From Dyella telluris (GTDB lineage: Bacteria > Pseudomonadota > Gammaproteobacteria > Xanthomonadales > Rhodanobacteraceae), in assembly GCF_014297575.1 (NCBI RefSeq), contig NZ_CP060412.1, forward strand, positions 4,216,001 through 4,280,000: a stretch of 64,000 bases of DNA. Reading direction: 5' to 3'. This document shows, piece after piece, positions 11,256-29,586 of the stretch. Under the pieces are notes generated by a model. That model worked only from the letters and a program-made list of their open reading frames with translations. It made no database searches and was not told the DNA's origin. A program made the position numbers and the translations under genes. Each line of letters begins with the position of its first letter. Positions within the stretch are counted from its first letter, which is position 1.

Positions 11256-12337
11256 AGCGGGTCAAGGTATTGCTGTTTTCCAGGTACTCACGACGCGGCC
11301 CCAGTTCACGGCTGCGCAGCCTGCAATACCTGCCATTGCTGGAAGAGCAGGGCATTGATGTGCAGGTACAGGCCTTGTTTCCGGATGCCTATCTCGAATC
11401 GCTCTACGAGGGAAAAGGCAAGTCGGCTCGCTACAAGGGTCTGCTGTACGGCGGAAAGCGCATGATGCAGCTGCTGCGCGAGGACGATTTCGACCTGACC
11501 TGGATCGAGGGCGAGTTGTTTCCCTACCTGCCCAGCTGGATCGAAGCAGCGTTGCTCCGCTCCAACCGGCCCTACGTGGTCGACTATGACGATGCGCTGT
11601 TCCACCGCTACGACCTCTCGTCGAGTGCGCTGGTCAGGCGATTGCTGGGCCGAAAAATTGACGAGGTCATGCGCAGGGCCTACTGCGTGGTGGCCGGGAA
11701 TGGCTATCTGGCTGATCGCGCCGCGAGTGCCGGGGCAACCCGTATCGAGATCATCCCCACCGTGGTGGATGACGATCGCTACAACGTCACTCCTCACGAC
11801 GGGAACCGGCAGCCCGTGATCGGCTGGATCGGCTCCCCGGCTACTGAGGACTACGTGCTGGAGTACGGCGAACTGCTTGAAAAGGTGTGCCTCGCCAACC
11901 AGGCGCGGCTGTTGCTGGTCGGTGCCAAGGACGACGCGGCCGGGCATTTCACCGAGATCAAGCCCGAAGTGATGGCATGGTCGGAGGACACCGAGGCCGA
12001 CGCCATTGCCCGCATGGACATCGGCATCATGCCGTTGCGCGACAGCCCGTGGGAGCGCGGCAAGTGCGGCTACAAGATCGTGCAGTACATGGCCTGCGGA
12101 TTGCCGGTGGTGGCTTCTTCGGTGGGGGCGAACATCGACATCGTGGACCATGGCCAGAACGGTTTCCTCGCCTCGGACGAGGTGGAGTGGCGAGACGGCC
12201 TGCAGCGCCTTATCGACGATCCACGCCTGCGCCATCGCATGGGGCGGGCCGGGCGCCGACGCGTCGAGGATCACTACAGCATCCGGCAGCAGGCCCCCCG
12301 GCTTGCCGCCGTGCTGCGTACCGCGGGGGGCTGCTGA
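11252..12337 (+). CDS. GT4-family glycosyltransferase
   Basis: 361 residues, GT-B fold. The N-terminus KVLLFSRYSRRGPSSRLRSLQYLPLLEEQGI is shared by glycosyltransferases of exopolysaccharide clusters. The C-terminal domain has GWIGSPATEDY and the nucleotide-sugar site KCGYKIVQYMACGLPVVASSVG. ATGA overlap with wzy upstream and TGATG overlap with the amidotransferase downstream show tight translational coupling. The sugar donor is unknown. Confidence 0.88.
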   Translation: MKRVKVLLFSRYSRRGPSSRLRSLQYLPLLEEQGIDVQVQALFPDAYLESLYEGKGKSARYKGLLYGGKRMMQLLREDDFDLTWIEGELFPYLPSWIEAALLRSNRPYVVDYDDALFHRYDLSSSALVRRLLGRKIDEVMRRAYCVVAGNGYLADRAASAGATRIEIIPTVVDDDRYNVTPHDGNRQPVIGWIGSPATEDYVLEYGELLEKVCLANQARLLLVGAKDDAAGHFTEIKPEVMAWSEDTEADAIARMDIGIMPLRDSPWERGKCGYKIVQYMACGLPVVASSVGANIDIVDHGQNGFLASDEVEWRDGLQRLIDDPRLRHRMGRAGRRRVEDHYSIRQQAPRLAAVLRTAGGC

Positions 12338-14301
12338 TGTGTGGCATCACGGGCTTCTGGCGCATGGAAAGGGGCGGCGGCCAGGGCCTGCGCGAGCAGG
12401 TCCAGGCCATGTCGACACGACTGAAACATCGCGGGCCTGACGACTGTGGTTTCTGGTGTGACGAGGAAACCGGCATCGCGCTCGCCCAGCAGCGTCTTTC
12501 CGTGCTGGATCTGTCGGAGGCTGGGCACCAGCCCATGCCCTCGGCCTGCGGGCGATACGTGGCGGTGTTCAACGGGGAGATATACAACCACGTCGACCTG
12601 CGTGATCGTCTCGCGGGAGAGGGCGTGGCGGTGGCCTGGCGCGGTCACTCCGACACCGAGACGCTGATGGCGTGCTTCGTGGCCTGGGGCGTCGAGGAAA
12701 CCTTGCGCTCGTGCGTGGGCATGTTCGCGTTCGCGCTATGGGATCGCCAGCGCCGGGAGCTCACGCTCGGGCGCGATCGCATGGGTGAGAAGCCGCTGTA
12801 CTACGGCTGGCAGGGCGATACCCTGATCTTCGGTTCGGAACTCAAGGCGCTGAAGGCGCATCCTGCGTTTCGCGCGGAGATTGATCGAGATGCGCTGGCA
12901 TTGTTTCTTCGCCACGACTGCATACCTGCACCGCATACCATCTACCGTGGCTTCCACAAGTTGCGTCCTGGCTATCTGCTCAAGGTCACCAGCGGATCGC
13001 GACGGGAGTCGCAGCAGTGGCCCTACTGGCGCTACAACGAAGCCGTGGACTCCGCATCAGCCACCCAGTTCGGTGGTACCGATCAGGAAGCGGTGGATGC
13101 ACTGGAGCATCGCCTCGGCGACAGCATCAGCACGCAGTTGCTTTCCGACGTGCCCCTCGGAGCCTTCCTGAGCGGTGGCATCGACAGCAGCACCGTGGTG
13201 GCGCTGATGCAGGCGCGCAGCAGACGGCCGGTCAAGACCTTCACGATTGGGTTTGCCGAGGACGGTTACGACGAAGCCGCACATGCGCGCGCGGTGGCGG
13301 CGCACCTGGGCACCGAGCACACCGAGTTGTATGTCAGCCCGGACGACGCGCTTTCGGTGATTCCGAAGCTGCCTTCCATTTTCTGCGAGCCATTCGCGGA
13401 CAGCTCGCAGATTCCCACCTACCTGATCAGCCAGCTGGCACGTCAAAGCGTGACGGTGGCACTCAGTGGCGATGGTGGCGACGAACTTTTCGGCGGGTAT
13501 AACCGCTATCTCGCCGCCCGCACCACCTGGGGGCGCATGCAGCATCTTCCGCTGCCGGCACGTCGTGCCCTGGCCGGTGCGCTTCGCGCCGTGACGCCCG
13601 GAGCGTGGGACAACATCATGGAACGGGTCAAGCCGCTGCTGCCGCGCAAGTGGCATCTCGCCCGCGCGGGCGAGAAGGCGCACAAGTTGTCCGAGGTGTT
13701 GACCTTGTCATCCGGGCAGGACTATCTGCTCAACCTGGCCAGCTGCTGGAAGGATCCCGCATCCATCGTGGTGGGCGCGCGCGAACCCGCCACCGTGCTG
13801 ACCGATCCGGCGGCGTGGCCGCGCATCGACGACCTGGCGCAGTGGATGATGGCGATGGATGCGCTGAGTTATCTGCCGGACGACATCCTGGTGAAGGTCG
13901 ATCGCTCGGCCATGGCCAACAGCCTTGAGACCCGCGTGCCGATGCTGGATCACCGCGTGGTGGAGTTCGCTTTGCGTATGCCGCTGGATCTGAAGATCCG
14001 CGACGGGCAGGGCAAGTGGATTCTCCGGCAAGTGCTGCACCGTTACGTGCCGAAAGAACTGATCGAACGACCCAAGATGGGTTTCGCCTTGCCTGTGGAT
14101 CAATGGCTGCGCGGTCCACTGCGCGAATGGGCCGAGGCATTGCTGAGTGAAAAGCGGTTGCGCGAGGAGGGATTCTTTGACCCCGCGCCGATCCGCCGTA
14201 CGTGGAAGGAACACCTGAGCGGCCGACGCAACTGGCAACGCCAGTTGTGGACCGTGCTCATGTTCCAGGGATGGCTTGAGGAAAACCAGGGGGCATCGTG
14301 A
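12337..14301 (+). CDS. AsnB-type glutamine amidotransferase of the polysaccharide locus
   Basis: 654 residues. An N-terminal Ntn glutaminase domain with catalytic Cys2 (MCGITGFW) has the RHRGPDD-type loop as LKHRGPDDCGFW. The C-terminal synthetase domain has the pyrophosphate loop SGGIDSS at residues 279-285. This is the WbpS/exosortase-type AsnB subfamily found in surface-glycan clusters, longer than metabolic AsnB (about 555 residues; a separate copy lies at 27913). Known members are thought to amidate sugar carboxylates to uronamides. With WbpB/D/E making a uronic acid upstream, amidation of that acid is the likely job; this is an inference. Confidence 0.87.
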   Translation: MCGITGFWRMERGGGQGLREQVQAMSTRLKHRGPDDCGFWCDEETGIALAQQRLSVLDLSEAGHQPMPSACGRYVAVFNGEIYNHVDLRDRLAGEGVAVAWRGHSDTETLMACFVAWGVEETLRSCVGMFAFALWDRQRRELTLGRDRMGEKPLYYGWQGDTLIFGSELKALKAHPAFRAEIDRDALALFLRHDCIPAPHTIYRGFHKLRPGYLLKVTSGSRRESQQWPYWRYNEAVDSASATQFGGTDQEAVDALEHRLGDSISTQLLSDVPLGAFLSGGIDSSTVVALMQARSRRPVKTFTIGFAEDGYDEAAHARAVAAHLGTEHTELYVSPDDALSVIPKLPSIFCEPFADSSQIPTYLISQLARQSVTVALSGDGGDELFGGYNRYLAARTTWGRMQHLPLPARRALAGALRAVTPGAWDNIMERVKPLLPRKWHLARAGEKAHKLSEVLTLSSGQDYLLNLASCWKDPASIVVGAREPATVLTDPAAWPRIDDLAQWMMAMDALSYLPDDILVKVDRSAMANSLETRVPMLDHRVVEFALRMPLDLKIRDGQGKWILRQVLHRYVPKELIERPKMGFALPVDQWLRGPLREWAEALLSEKRLREEGFFDPAPIRRTWKEHLSGRRNWQRQLWTVLMFQGWLEENQGAS

Positions 14302-26229: not shown

Positions 26230-27168
26230 ATGTTGCGTGTCGCGTTCGCTGCCGTACTGACCCTGTTGTGCGCTGATGTTGTCGCGCAAGATGTCACGCC
26301 CTCCGTTTTTGCGCCGGGAGTGATTTCCGGGCCGCTGCACGACAGTGCTCCCGCGTTCGCGCCGGACGGCCGCACCGTGTACTTCACGCGCAGCGATGGT
26401 ACTGAATCCAGCATCCTGGTCAGTCATCTGGACAACGGGCACTGGTCCACGCCGACCATGGCGCCATTTTCGGGACAGTGGAGCGACATGGAGCCGGCCA
26501 TGTCACCGGACGGTCGTTTCCTGGTGTTCGTCTCCAATCGCCCGAAGACGCCCGGCGGCCAGCCGCTGGATGGCTACTTCATGGGGCGCAGCTTCCCCGG
26601 GCATGGCGGCAATCTCTGGAAGGTCTCCTGGGAAAACGGCAAGTGGGGAACCCCGGTGCGCCTGCCGGATGCCGTCAATCGCAGCGACTCGACGTTTGCG
26701 CCGGCGGTGGCGGCCGATGGCACGCTGTATTTCATGCATCCGGCGGCGGACCCGAAGCACTTCGAGTTGTTCCGTGCCGCCGCGCATCGCGGTGGTTACG
26801 ACGAGCCTCAGGCGCTGCCTTTCAGCGACGGGCATGTGACCGACGTGGATCCGGCGGTGGCGCCCGATGAGTCCTTCGTCGTGTTCGGCTCCAGTCGTTC
26901 GCCAGCGCGTCAGATCGATCTTTTCATCGTGTTTCGCGACAACGGCCAATGGGGTACGCCCATTCATCTGGGCAATGGCGTGAACAGCGCCGGCTCGGAT
27001 GCCGAGGCGCGCCTGAGCCCCGATCACCAGACGCTGTATTTCGCCAGCGATCGCCTGGAGGACATCGCGCCCGGCACGGTCCGTGCGGACTGGGACAACG
27101 GCAAGTACAACATCTGGCAGATTCCCCTGGGGCCCTGGCTGGATGCACACGCGAGGTCGCAGCACTGA
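26230..27168 (+). CDS. Periplasmic TolB-like beta-propeller protein
   Basis: 312 residues with an N-terminal signal peptide (MLRVAFAAVLTLLCADVVAQ). At least five PD40/WD40-like repeats are visible by their SPDG-type turns: APAFAPDGRTVYFTR, EPAMSPDGRFLVFVS, APAVAADGTLYFM, DPAVAPDESFVVFGS and EARLSPDHQTLYFAS. This predicts a small secreted beta-propeller. Its function is unknown; such proteins often bind protein or peptide partners in the periplasm. Confidence 0.8.
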   Translation: MLRVAFAAVLTLLCADVVAQDVTPSVFAPGVISGPLHDSAPAFAPDGRTVYFTRSDGTESSILVSHLDNGHWSTPTMAPFSGQWSDMEPAMSPDGRFLVFVSNRPKTPGGQPLDGYFMGRSFPGHGGNLWKVSWENGKWGTPVRLPDAVNRSDSTFAPAVAADGTLYFMHPAADPKHFELFRAAAHRGGYDEPQALPFSDGHVTDVDPAVAPDESFVVFGSSRSPARQIDLFIVFRDNGQWGTPIHLGNGVNSAGSDAEARLSPDHQTLYFASDRLEDIAPGTVRADWDNGKYNIWQIPLGPWLDAHARSQH

Positions 27169-27250
27169 CGGTCGTGGCCCGCTGACCATCGTGACGCACC
27201 CGTAACGTATCTTTTGCGATACAGGCGTCTGGGTCATCGGGACGTTGATC

Positions 27251-27643
27251 ATGATTGAACAGATCCCCGGATTACCGGCAGGTGCGCTGGGATTCCGTGC
27301 CAGCGGGCAGGTCACTGCCACCGATTATTCACGCGTGCTGGTGCCCGATATCGAGGCGGCCTTCGCGTTGAATCGCAAGTTGCGCCTGCTCTATCACGTC
27401 GGCCCCGACTTCACCGGTTTTGACGCCGGCGCGATGTGGGAAGACGCACAACTGGGTTTCCGCCACTTCAGCGGCTGGGACCGCGTGGCGCTGGTTACCG
27501 ATGTGCAGTGGCTGCGCGTCACGGCGAGCGCCATGGGTTTTGCGGTGCCGGCCGAGTTCAAGCTGTTTCACAACGCCCAGTTCGACGAGGCCATGGCGTG
27601 GATCGGCGAGCCGCGCCCCGTCGAGGACGATGGAAACAAATGA
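27251..27643 (+). CDS. SpoIIAA-like (STAS-related) protein
   Basis: 130 residues. MIEQIPGLPAGALGFRASGQVTATDY followed by VLVPDIEAAF and GWDRVALVTDVQWLR matches the SpoIIAA-like family (PF11964), a STAS-type fold seen in many proteobacteria. ATG 27251 is preferred to the TTG two codons earlier. It has no signal peptide. Its function is unknown. It ends just before the asnB leader and may share no transcript with it. Confidence 0.8.
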   Translation: MIEQIPGLPAGALGFRASGQVTATDYSRVLVPDIEAAFALNRKLRLLYHVGPDFTGFDAGAMWEDAQLGFRHFSGWDRVALVTDVQWLRVTASAMGFAVPAEFKLFHNAQFDEAMAWIGEPRPVEDDGNK

Positions 27644-27657
27644 AACTTTATTGGTGC

Positions 27658-27685
27658 TTGTCAGCCGGCGAGCGCTGTGTTTAAG
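27658..27685 (+). promoter_or_regulatory. Candidate promoter of the asnB leader
   Basis: -35 TTGTCA (27658-27663, five of six to consensus), 16-bp spacer, -10 TTTAAG (27680-27685, four of six). It would start RNA near 27691-27693, almost on the first in-frame ATG (27694), which makes the later ATGs (27724, 27757) more likely starts of the leader peptide. Alternatively the real promoter lies further upstream. Confidence 0.35.
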
Positions 27686-27693
27686 TCGGTGGC

Positions 27694-27822
27694 ATGTCCA
27701 GCCTTCACGCCATCCTTGTCGCCATGACCGCCGCTTCCGCGTCGGCCGACGAGTGCATGCGCGCGCTGAACAACAATAACGCCAATAACAATACCCGCTT
27801 GTACGGGTGGGCCGGCGTGTAA
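27694..27822 (+). CDS. Asn-rich leader peptide of asnB
   Basis: A short ORF of 42 codons (32 or 21 if it starts at ATG 27724 or 27757). Its C-terminal part encodes NNNNANNNT: four Asn codons at 27769-27780, one Ala codon, three Asn codons at 27784-27792. It ends TRLYGWAGV-stop. Seven Asn codons out of eight, directly before an asparagine synthetase gene and 24 bp before an intrinsic terminator, is the layout of amino-acid attenuator leaders such as hisL and thrL. No start has a strong Shine-Dalgarno, so the exact start is uncertain. Confidence 0.8.
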   Translation: MSSLHAILVAMTAASASADECMRALNNNNANNNTRLYGWAGV

Positions 27823-27879
27823 GCAGAAGCAACATACACACGCAGAAAGGCCCGCTCCCGAGCGGGCCTTTTTGTTTTT
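27769..27879 (+). promoter_or_regulatory. Predicted asparagine-sensing transcription attenuator of asnB
   Basis: Mutually exclusive pairings can be read by eye. Segment 1 (27792-27797, TACCCG) pairs with segment 2 (27804-27809, CGGGTG) right after the Asn codons. Segment 2 (27805-27813, GGGTGGGCC) can instead pair over nine bases, two of them G-U, with 27849-27857 (GGCCCGCTC), the 5' arm of the terminator. Asn starvation would stall ribosomes on the Asn codons, mask segment 1 and favour the antiterminator. Full translation to the stop at 27820 would cover segment 2 and let the terminator form. Confidence 0.75.
27846..27879 (+). terminator. Strong intrinsic terminator upstream of asnB
   Basis: An 11-bp perfect stem AAAGGCCCGCT / AGCGGGCCTTT with a four-base loop CCCG, followed by TTTTTGTTTTT (overlapping the stem end). 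It lies between the leader peptide and the asnB start, 34 bp before the ATG, so it must be read through for asnB expression. Confidence 0.9.
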
Positions 27880-27912
27880 CAGCCTCGTGAAAAAGCAAAG
27901 GGAATCCACCTC

Positions 27913-29586
27913 ATGTGTTCGATCTTCGGCATGTTCGACCTGCAGCCCGGCGACGACCTGGCGGCGTTGCGCCAGCAGGCGCTTGAGCTATCCCAGCGCC
28001 AGCGCCACCGTGGGCCGGACTGGAGTGGCGTATTCGTGGATGCGGGCGTGATCCTGGTGCATGAGCGGCTTGCCATCGTCGATCCCGCCAGTGGCGCGCA
28101 GCCGCTGCGCTCACGCGATGACGCGCTGGCGCTGGCGGTGAATGGCGAGATCTACAACCATCGCGAACTGCGTGCGGCGAGCGACTACGATTTCACCACC
28201 GGCTCCGATTGCGAGGTGATCAACGCGCTGTATCGCGATGATCAGGCGCCCGCCGAATGGGTCTCCCGGCTCAATGGCATCTTTGCGTTCGCCTTGTGGG
28301 ACAGCATCGAATCCCGTTACGTGATTGCACGCGACCCCCTTGGCGTGTGCCCGCTTTACTGGGGGCATGATGGTGAAGGTCGCCTCTGCGTGGCCTCGGA
28401 AATGAAATCGCTGGTGGGCCTGTGTACGGACGTGGCTCCGTTTCCGCCGGGGCATGTCTACGACAGCGCGGACGGTGAGCTGCGCCGTTACTACCAGAAG
28501 CCGTGGCGCGACTACGCCAGCACCCGCGGTCACGACGTGGCGCCGGCCGAGTTGCGCACCGCCTTCGAACAGGCCGTGCATCGCCAACTGATGACCGACG
28601 TGCCTTATGGCGTGCTGTTGTCCGGCGGCCTGGATTCTTCCCTGGTTGCCGCCTGCGCCGCCCGCTTCGCCCGTCACCGCGTGGAAGACGACGACCGCGC
28701 CGAGGCATGGTGGCCGCGCCTGCATTCGTTCGCGATCGGCCTGGAAGGTTCGCCCGACCTTGCTGCGGCACAGGTGGCAGCCGATGCGCTGGGCACGGTT
28801 CACCACGGCTTCGTCTACACCTTCTGGGAAGGACTGGATGCGCTGCCCGAAGTGATCCGCCATATCGAAACCTACGATGTCACTACCATCCGCGCATCCA
28901 CGCCCATGTATCTTCTCGCGCGCCGCATCAAGGCCATGGGTGTGAAGATGGTGCTCTCCGGCGAAGGATCGGACGAGATCTTCGGTGGCTACCTGTACTT
29001 CCACAAAGCGCCCTCGGCCGAAGCATTCCACGAAGAAACCGTGCGCAAGCTCGATGCACTGCACAGCTATGACTGCCTGCGCGCGAACAAGTCGATGATG
29101 GCCTGGGGCGTGGAGGCACGCGTGCCCTTCCTGGATCTCGAATTCCTGGACGTTGCCATGGGCATGGACGCCCGCCACAAGATGGCGGGGCAGGGGCGCA
29201 TCGAAAAGGCCGTGCTGCGCGAAGCCTTCCAGGGCGCATTGCCGGACGAAATCCTGTGGCGCCAGAAAGAACAGTTCAGCGACGGTGTGGGCTATGGCTG
29301 GATCGACGGCCTCAAGGCGCACGCCGAACAATCGGTGAGCGATCGTGAGTTCGCCGCGGCCGCTACGCGCTTTCCACACAACCCGCCGGCCACCAAGGAG
29401 GCCTATCTGTATCGCCGCATTTTCGAGCGCTTCTATCCGGGGCAGGCGTGTGCGGAGACGGTGCCGGGCGGGAAATCCATCGCGTGTTCATCGCCCGCTG
29501 CGCTGGCATGGGATCCGTCGTTCGCTGCCGCAGCTGATCCTTCCGGTCGCGCGGTGCGTGACGTGCACCAGCAGGCGTTGGCGTAA
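27913..29586 (+). CDS. asnB: Asparagine synthetase B (glutamine-hydrolysing)
   Basis: 557 residues, close in length and sequence character to E. coli AsnB. Catalytic Cys2 (MCSIFGMFDL), glutaminase-domain RHRGPDWSG and NGEIYNHRELR, pyrophosphate loop SGGLDSS at residues 237-243, then YDVTTIRASTPMY and SGEGSDEIFGGYLYFHKAP. It makes Asn from Asp, Gln and ATP in the cytosol. AAAGGGA lies about nine bases before ATG. It is monocistronic, with an attenuator-like leader upstream and a terminator downstream. This is the metabolic enzyme, distinct from the longer polysaccharide-locus paralogue at 12337. Confidence 0.95.
   Translation: MCSIFGMFDLQPGDDLAALRQQALELSQRQRHRGPDWSGVFVDAGVILVHERLAIVDPASGAQPLRSRDDALALAVNGEIYNHRELRAASDYDFTTGSDCEVINALYRDDQAPAEWVSRLNGIFAFALWDSIESRYVIARDPLGVCPLYWGHDGEGRLCVASEMKSLVGLCTDVAPFPPGHVYDSADGELRRYYQKPWRDYASTRGHDVAPAELRTAFEQAVHRQLMTDVPYGVLLSGGLDSSLVAACAARFARHRVEDDDRAEAWWPRLHSFAIGLEGSPDLAAAQVAADALGTVHHGFVYTFWEGLDALPEVIRHIETYDVTTIRASTPMYLLARRIKAMGVKMVLSGEGSDEIFGGYLYFHKAPSAEAFHEETVRKLDALHSYDCLRANKSMMAWGVEARVPFLDLEFLDVAMGMDARHKMAGQGRIEKAVLREAFQGALPDEILWRQKEQFSDGVGYGWIDGLKAHAEQSVSDREFAAAATRFPHNPPATKEAYLYRRIFERFYPGQACAETVPGGKSIACSSPAALAWDPSFAAAADPSGRAVRDVHQQALA

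Follow-up and report, generated by a model that had tools for sequence, protein, structure and literature searches.

What is a small ORF that carries the run NNNNANNN doing directly 5' of a T-tract hairpin and of asnB, the gene for asparagine synthetase? It was met at 27694-27822 of the window, by which we mean the whole 64,000-nt stretch of Dyella telluris DNA analysed here, and all coordinates below refer to that stretch. The initial annotation read the arrangement as an asparagine-codon leader peptide with an attenuator, and predicted that low charged tRNA-Asn raises asnB transcription. Below we ask whether the run could be fortuitous, which of the RNA pairings matter, how far the design extends beyond this one locus, and how a ribosome might operate it.

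The leader ORF and its asparagine run

The leader peptide ORF (27694-27822, + strand) consists of 42 codons plus a stop, reads MSSLHAILVAMTAASASADECMRALNNNNANNNTRLYGWAGV in translation, and is predicted to be leaderless. Its seven Asn codons fall into two runs on the + strand, AAC AAC AAT AAC at 27769-27780 and AAT AAC AAT at 27784-27792, and Asn runs occur in relatives as well. Translation and coordinates confirm that a leader ORF with Asn codons stands ahead of a terminator and asnB, with a slight correction to the spacing, since the distance from the stop of the ORF to 27846 is 23 nt and not 24, and the outermost predicted pair of the hairpin begins 19 nt past the stop. Just 5' of the leader, on the same strand, lies a SpoIIAA-like (PF11964) gene at 27245-27643.

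A search of the 4.99-Mb genome for the 24-nt pattern AAYx4-NNN-AAYx3 gives one match, and its backwards-pattern control none, and at least four Asn codons are found in 11 of the 109,575 stop-free 9-codon windows in the six frames of the 64 kb, that of the leader included; the Asn run in the leader exceeds chance expectation. Across the leaders collected upstream of other asnB genes (see below), the median number of Asn codons is 7 in family f1 and 6 in family f2, and what is conserved is the ATG together with Asn codons, AAC and AAT both being used, while Shine-Dalgarno (SD) sequences are rare. AAT makes up about half of the leader Asn codons in f1 (325/683) against 55/445 in the readable f1 asnB genes (odds ratio 6.4), a usage that perhaps keeps the run slow or free of pairing. 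A GC-rich inverted repeat in the middle of the ORF (27728-27747 in the window; for example CGCCGCTTCCGCGGCG in locus L044) seems to be recurrent in f1 of alignment A1, and could possibly be a pause site.

The gene behind the leader, asnB (27913-29586, + strand), encodes a glutamine-dependent asparagine synthetase B (NF006949 at 851 bits with a cut-off of 499; PF00733 and GATase_7) and is preceded by the SD-like AAAGGGA at 27897-27903 (+ strand). The window's AsnB holds 6 Asn in 557 residues, so that it may itself be made when asparagine is short. A second asparagine-synthase-like gene is seen at 12337-12852 of the window (open frame of 806 aa, MCGITGF type, 38% identity over query residues 1-167).

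Could the short ORF serve the translation of asnB rather than its transcription? Such a leader would boost asnB translation by ribosome reinitiation and leave termination uncontrolled, an idea taken from the accessible part of PMC4833913. A short ORF does precede asnB, as reinitiation would require, but asnB has its own SD-like 4-mer in 165 of 170 cases, and between the leader stop and asnB there are 83 to 441 nt in the loci measured, a distance judged too great for efficient reinitiation, which makes this explanation extremely unlikely.

Terminator, antiterminator and hairpin 1:2 in the window

The intrinsic terminator (27842-27879, + strand) consists of a stem, 27842-27856/27861-27875, and a T-rich stretch at 27869-27879 (TTTTTGTTTTT), and its helix is backed by covariation in f1. 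The 5' arm of this stem doubles, as segment 3 (GGCCCGCTC, 27849-27857, + strand), as the 3' arm of an antiterminator whose own 5' arm, segment 2 (GGGTGGGCC, 27805-27813, + strand), lies within the last codons of the leader ORF; complementarity and folding point to both arms. An inner antiterminator helix, predicted by folding with p 0.97 before the terminator 3' arm, joins 27815-27820 to 27838-27843 (both + strand; folding and alignment indicate the latter arm). In this register one of its pairs is C-A in 42 of 85 relatives, and on our uncounted reading the helix takes a shifted register in those 42. Hairpin 1:2 is formed by TACCCG (segment 1, 27792-27797, + strand) and CGGGTG (27804-27809, + strand), which are complementary and belong to a short-loop type that scores above codon-shuffled controls in f1. 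Both pairings named at the outset, 27792-27797/27804-27809 and 27805-27813/27849-27857, are thus complementary, with some G-U pairs.

What decides between these structures? In folding of the window, the antiterminator core forms with p 0.997-1.0 before the terminator 3' arm is made, whether segment 1 is visible or not; when the RNA is covered to 27831, as by a ribosome at the stop, no antiterminator forms; and with the 3' arm added, the terminator becomes the most stable structure. Of the antiterminator pairs, hairpin 1:2 overlaps the outer 4 and no others. Since hairpin 1:2 can coexist with the antiterminator core, masking of segment 1 is unnecessary, and the caveat originally attached to the locus, that stalls at the first Asn codons may leave segment 1 unmasked, largely dissolves. 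Hairpin 1:2 is present, but folding makes it neither required nor exclusive of the antiterminator.

An additional upstream match had been proposed to pre-empt the antiterminator without translation. The match (27738-27747 with 27810-27819) is indeed complementary but not conserved, and the pre-emptor was rejected, the first three 5' positions of the 27740-27747 match being gaps in 66 of 85 aligned relatives. Its p is 0.002 before the terminator 3' arm exists and 0.43 in the full-length fold with the terminator formed.

These results bear on a strict trp-like design, in which hairpin 1:2 or the upstream match at 27740-27747 is decisive, antitermination needs a stall that masks segment 1 (one at the last Asn codons), and leaders that are not translated terminate. 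Hairpin 1:2 does exist, and in f1 the short-loop hairpin beside segment 2 (loops of 3-10 nt) scores 12.85 against 8.48 for codon-shuffled leaders, with 81/104 at or above 11 versus 27% of shuffles; in f2 the mean is likewise higher (14.27 versus 10.68), yet 30/63 reach 11 against 59% of shuffles, so that the excess holds by mean in both families and by threshold only in f1. Moreover, in 32 aligned f2 leaders the Asn run includes CCGCA, which is complementary to TGCGG in segment 2, the commonest form of each pair occurring in 28-32 of them. The near-certain folding of the antiterminator core with or without segment 1, and the restriction of the overlap to its outer pairs, argue against this design, as do the poor conservation of the upstream match and the finding that, with long loops allowed, pairing of the 1:2 type hardly rises above shuffles (13.69 versus 12.86 in f1, 13.61 versus 13.28 in f2). 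Taken together, we regard the strict trp-like design as rather unlikely, albeit one to be taken seriously.

Recurrence of the leader upstream of asnB

How widespread is the arrangement? Relatives of asnB were drawn from 40 related genomes and 80 named contigs (Dyella, Rhodanobacter, Frateuria, Fulvimonas, Dokdonella and others). The 112 loci were reduced to 92 by dropping 16 duplicates together with L002 and L003 (another asparagine-synthase-like gene) and L092 and L095 (contig ends), which went unscored, as did L254, L260 and L275 (no start found) and L277 (partial gene) in the wider set; the upstream sequence of L255 (95 nt) and L264 (325 nt) is short, and L188 and L228 come from one genome (G451). 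An Asn leader followed by a GC-rich hairpin 19-29 nt past its stop was found at 88 of the 92 distinct loci, the four loci without it (L029-L032) being from other families. In the order as a whole, asnB was found at E<=1e-150 in 214 of 299 genomes, and 96 further upstream regions had the leader in 65/65 cases in f2, 20/20 in f1, 1/1 in f3, 0/9 in f10 and 0/1 in a class outlier. The leader design hence stands before asnB at 174 loci, the window's own included, with 170 unique leaders (104 in f1, 63 in f2 and 3 in f3) and the hairpin 19-34 nt past the leader stop. The size of f2 within the order makes Xanthomonadaceae its probable identity.

These first counts used a loose threshold of 3 Asn in 9 codons, and ten leaders (8 in f2, 2 in f1) have just 3. 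All readable regions were therefore put through a uniform re-test whose criteria were an Asn run, counted over 9 codons, in a short ORF and a GC-rich, T-tailed hairpin within 40 nt. At a threshold of at least 4 Asn, 100/104 regions passed in f1, 59/67 in f2 and 3/3 in f3, against 0/6 divergent asnB copies, 1/28 in f8, 0/14 in f10, 0/3 in f5, f6 and f11, and 0/18 in the class outgroup. At least 3 Asn gave 102/104, 67/67 and 3/3 in f1, f2 and f3, and again 0/6 divergent copies, 1/28 in f8, 0/14 in f10 and 0/3 in f5, f6 and f11, with 2/18 in the outgroup; these two outgroup passes (L227 and L246) are taken as chance ends of longer frames. Two f1 failures are technical, the frame of L099 starting outside the 500 nt of sequence used and too few T's following the hairpin in L109, and the outgroup loci L234, L235, L236 and L244, unplaced by the uniform test, had at most 3 Asn in 9 codons in a separate count. 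The divergent asnB copies without a leader (64-66% identity) belong to four f1 genomes (G087, G249, G293 and G295) and two f2 genomes (G110 and G256). Asn codon runs, terminator and pairing thus recur in 170 unique leaders; conservation of the runs in relatives was a check named beforehand, and the recurrence supports the core of the initial annotation, an Asn-codon leader peptide with an attenuator at asnB.

A covariance model, R1, was built from 45 f1 leaders, which match it by construction. Run against the 299 genomes, it gave 78 matches at E<=1e-8, all 14-162 nt upstream of asnB and on the same strand, and it matched in 65 of the 69 f1 genomes with asnB, the remaining 4 carrying divergent asnB (64-66% identity). 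Weaker matches are numerous (at E<=0.01, 267/299 genomes have one) and are often confined to the terminator portion.

Since 27 of 28 f8 and 14 of 14 f10 asnB loci have no leader, asnB can do without one. The remaining f8 locus, L212 (G102), has a lone divergent Asn leader, MFAIYNTINTTNNRLLRSAGSF, with its own terminator 21 nt past the stop, in a family whose other 27 readable loci lack a leader; it may be either a relic or of separate origin. As a separate observation, 6 of the 170 leader loci (L053, L072, L088, L093, L099 and L109) share, upstream of asnB, a repeat holding ATGGCCGGTATGCCGG; it lies 3' of the terminator in L088, L093, L099 and L109.

Different arms, similar pairing

Is the pairing between leader end and terminator arm itself under selection, or does it merely accompany a conserved sequence? 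In f1, GGGCC and adjoining bases at the leader end pair with GGCCCGC in the terminator arm, and in f2 a leader end such as CCGATGCGGG pairs with CCCGCATCGG; the two families have unlike arm sequences, yet both retain the pairing of leader end and terminator arm. When arms were swapped between loci (134 distinct arm pairs), native combinations scored 19.3 and swapped ones 17.7 (z 8.9; 0/500 permutations as high), and within f2 the values were 21.0 and 18.7 (z 6.9; 0/500 as high). Within f1, native arms scored slightly below swapped ones (18.3 versus 18.6; z -2.9; 499/500 as high), because the arms there are nearly invariant. Shuffling the codon order of the leader end cut the helix score in both families, from 18.3 to 14.3 in f1 and from 21.0 to 13.5 in f2.

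Aligned helices give a similarly mixed picture. The f1 terminator has 98.7% of cells paired and 30 cells with double changes (45 sequences), and the f2 antiterminator 93.7% of cells paired and double changes at 2 pairs (32 sequences); in the f1 antiterminator 93.3% of cells are paired (8 pairs, 45 sequences), with compensatory changes at 0 pairs. Covariation of both helices had been put forward as a check at the outset, and the f1 terminator shows it, as does the antiterminator in f2 and in comparisons between families, but the antiterminator within f1 does not.

Might the hairpin nonetheless be a constitutive partial terminator, for instance of the SpoIIAA-like gene, placed behind a small protein-coding gene and indifferent to asparagine? 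A + strand gene ending at 27643 does lie 5' of it. Against this, the length of the peptide and its sequence outside the Asn run vary by family, and the codons that recur near the stop are those making up the RNA arm; furthermore, the Asn run and the terminator stay with asnB across families of differing RNA arms. A constitutive terminator is accordingly a very unlikely account of the locus.

A predicted leaderless start

The region just upstream of the leader holds a predicted -10-like element, TTAAGT (27681-27686, + strand), 7 nt before the leader ATG, and, 17 nt from it, a predicted -35-like element, TTGTCA (27658-27663, + strand); in alignment A1 a TTG-type -35 occupies the same place as the latter. 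In 154 of 169 leaders the -10-like box lies 6 or 7 nt from the leader start, and in 159 of 169 the -35-like hexamer lies 17 or 18 nt from the -10-like box, both counts being made with leader starts picked partly by promoter score. The + strand list of a simple promoter/terminator scan contained neither a consensus promoter nor this terminator. The ATG column of the leader is at least 90% conserved in alignment A1, and an SD-like 4-mer precedes the leader start in 13/169 cases as against 165/170 for asnB. Because the -10-like box lies 6-7 nt upstream of the start and SD sequences are rare, the leader transcript is predicted to be leaderless, starting at or next to the ATG. Transcripts that begin at the leader start codon are likewise described for trpL of S. 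meliloti and for trpL, leuL, ilvL, metL and thrL of Streptomyces lividans (accessible parts of PMC7298713 and PMC8079986); those leaders, however, serve other amino acids, and the start site in Dyella is a prediction.

Ribosome positions and the proposed switch

Where would a ribosome have to stand for the structures to be exchanged? The front edge of a ribosome was set 12 nt from the first base of its A-site codon. If the ribosome is placed on the first Asn codon, folding allows the antiterminator in all leaders (104/104 in f1, 63/63 in f2 and 3/3 in f3); if it is placed on the last, folding does so in 82/104, 63/63 and 3/3, the lower f1 figure arising because some leaders have an Asn codon near or in segment 2. 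With the ribosome absent, the antiterminator can form in 92/104, 56/63 and 3/3 leaders, and therefore untranslated leaders might read through, unlike those of trp. The antiterminator 5' arm starts at a median of -16 (f1) or -19 (f2) relative to the end of the stop, and lies fully within -24 to +9 of that point in 104/104 f1, 43/63 f2 and 3/3 f3 leaders.

Because of these folding results and the position of the 5' arm near the stop, the simplest switch would be a ribosome that has finished the ORF and covers segment 2. This modelling suggests a switch simpler than the one first proposed, in that the antiterminator would form unless a ribosome at the stop covers its 5' arm; whichever of the Asn codons in the window the ribosome stalled on, the switch could therefore work. 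Polymerase would start at or next to the ATG, and ribosomes would load on the leaderless start. When Asn-tRNA is ample, the first ribosome would reach the stop and cover segment 2 (27805-27820), whereupon segment 3 would fold with segment 4 and transcription would end near 27879. When Asn-tRNA is scarce, the ribosome would wait on the Asn codons with its front edge at or before about 27801, segment 2 would have paired with segment 3 by the time segment 4 is transcribed, and polymerase would enter asnB. Hairpin 1:2 would, on this model, time polymerase or weaken the outer antiterminator pairs. We thus consider it very probable that 27694-27879 is a ribosome-mediated transcription attenuator of asnB whose Asn run senses the supply of Asn-tRNA(Asn), and the prediction that low charged tRNA-Asn raises asnB transcription is retained.

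Does charging report free asparagine?

The attenuator idea needs Asn-tRNA to depend on free asparagine. AsnRS was found above the cut-off in all 36 genomes tested. GatB is part of an amidotransferase able to make Asn on tRNA; it was found in 6 of these 36 genomes, all 6 among the 7 without this asnB, and in 0 of the 29 with it. Among the 299 genomes of the order, gatB is present in 55 (E<=1e-50), asnB in 214 and both in 0, where an overlap of 39 would be expected if the two were independent, shared ancestry being uncorrected in that figure; 30 genomes (G020 and 29 others) have neither gene. This exclusion is no general rule, since GatCAB is reported together with AsnB in many other bacteria (the accessible part of PMC4206432, a survey of 547 genera). 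Nor does the absence of GatB alone bring the leader, since f8 and f10 have asnB mostly without it.

A broader reading is offered tentatively and with somewhat less than even confidence: that these leaders form an Asn-specific attenuator class of at least two families in the order, with a default the reverse of that of trp, in which the antiterminator would form unaided on a leaderless transcript, termination being signalled by a ribosome that has reached the stop, and which would be kept only where free asparagine made by AsnB, and not GatCAB acting on tRNA, feeds Asn-tRNA(Asn), so that charging truly reports free asparagine.

Relation to known systems and meaning

Could the RNA sense asparagine without translation? 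T-box riboswitches bind tRNA directly and have no translated ORF, whereas one is predicted in the asnB leader. Those reported at Asn-related genes in Firmicutes, for example at asnS in a few species and at predicted Asn transporters, read tRNA charging and control terminators, as the asnB leader is predicted to do (accessible part of PMC2494555). A translation-free riboswitch binding tRNA or a metabolite, be it T-box-like or an Asn aptamer, would not be expected to carry a reading frame of Asn codons, and Rfam gave no T-box match in the window: no family reached its gathering score anywhere in the 64 kb, and a T-box is absent from the list at E<=1 for 27000-28500. Such a riboswitch is scarcely credible here. 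The best sub-threshold Rfam match of the asnB leader, at 31.8 bits, is the threonine operon leader (RF00506), which has a similar layout; the asnB leader differs from it in falling below the gathering score of 55, in having Asn rather than Thr codons and in having asnB behind it.

The ribosome-mediated attenuator that we favour is thus of a familiar kind. The trp, his, thr, leu, ilv and phe operons have known ribosome-mediated leader peptide attenuators, which share with the asnB leader codons for the product amino acid in a short ORF, an antiterminator competing with an intrinsic terminator, and a biosynthetic gene behind (accessible part of PMC1183508). The asnB leader differs from them in that it is predicted to sense asparagine and to be leaderless, and in that, by prediction, only a ribosome standing at the stop keeps its antiterminator from forming. 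The initial annotation knew of no described asparagine peptide attenuator, and neither did a literature search find one: covering asparagine and asnB leader peptides, attenuators, T-boxes, leaderless leaders, attenuation surveys other than those of Vitreschak et al. 2004 and Lopatovskaya et al. 2010, and Xanthomonas start sites, it showed no Asn leader peptide among the papers listed, and the accessible parts of PMC2965389 and PMC1262725 contain no word starting with 'asparagin'. While the kind of attenuator is known, its asparagine version on asnB appears to be new.

If true, asparagine would join the amino acids that are read by leader-peptide attenuators, and a means by which a large proteobacterial order controls its asparagine synthetase would be at hand. 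The 170 leaders would make up a natural set, in which RNA has solved one switch in at least two unrelated ways, for tests of a minimal attenuator. Is hairpin 1:2 needed? Can a leaderless ORF be coupled to polymerase in time? And does tRNA-dependent Asn synthesis render such a sensor useless?
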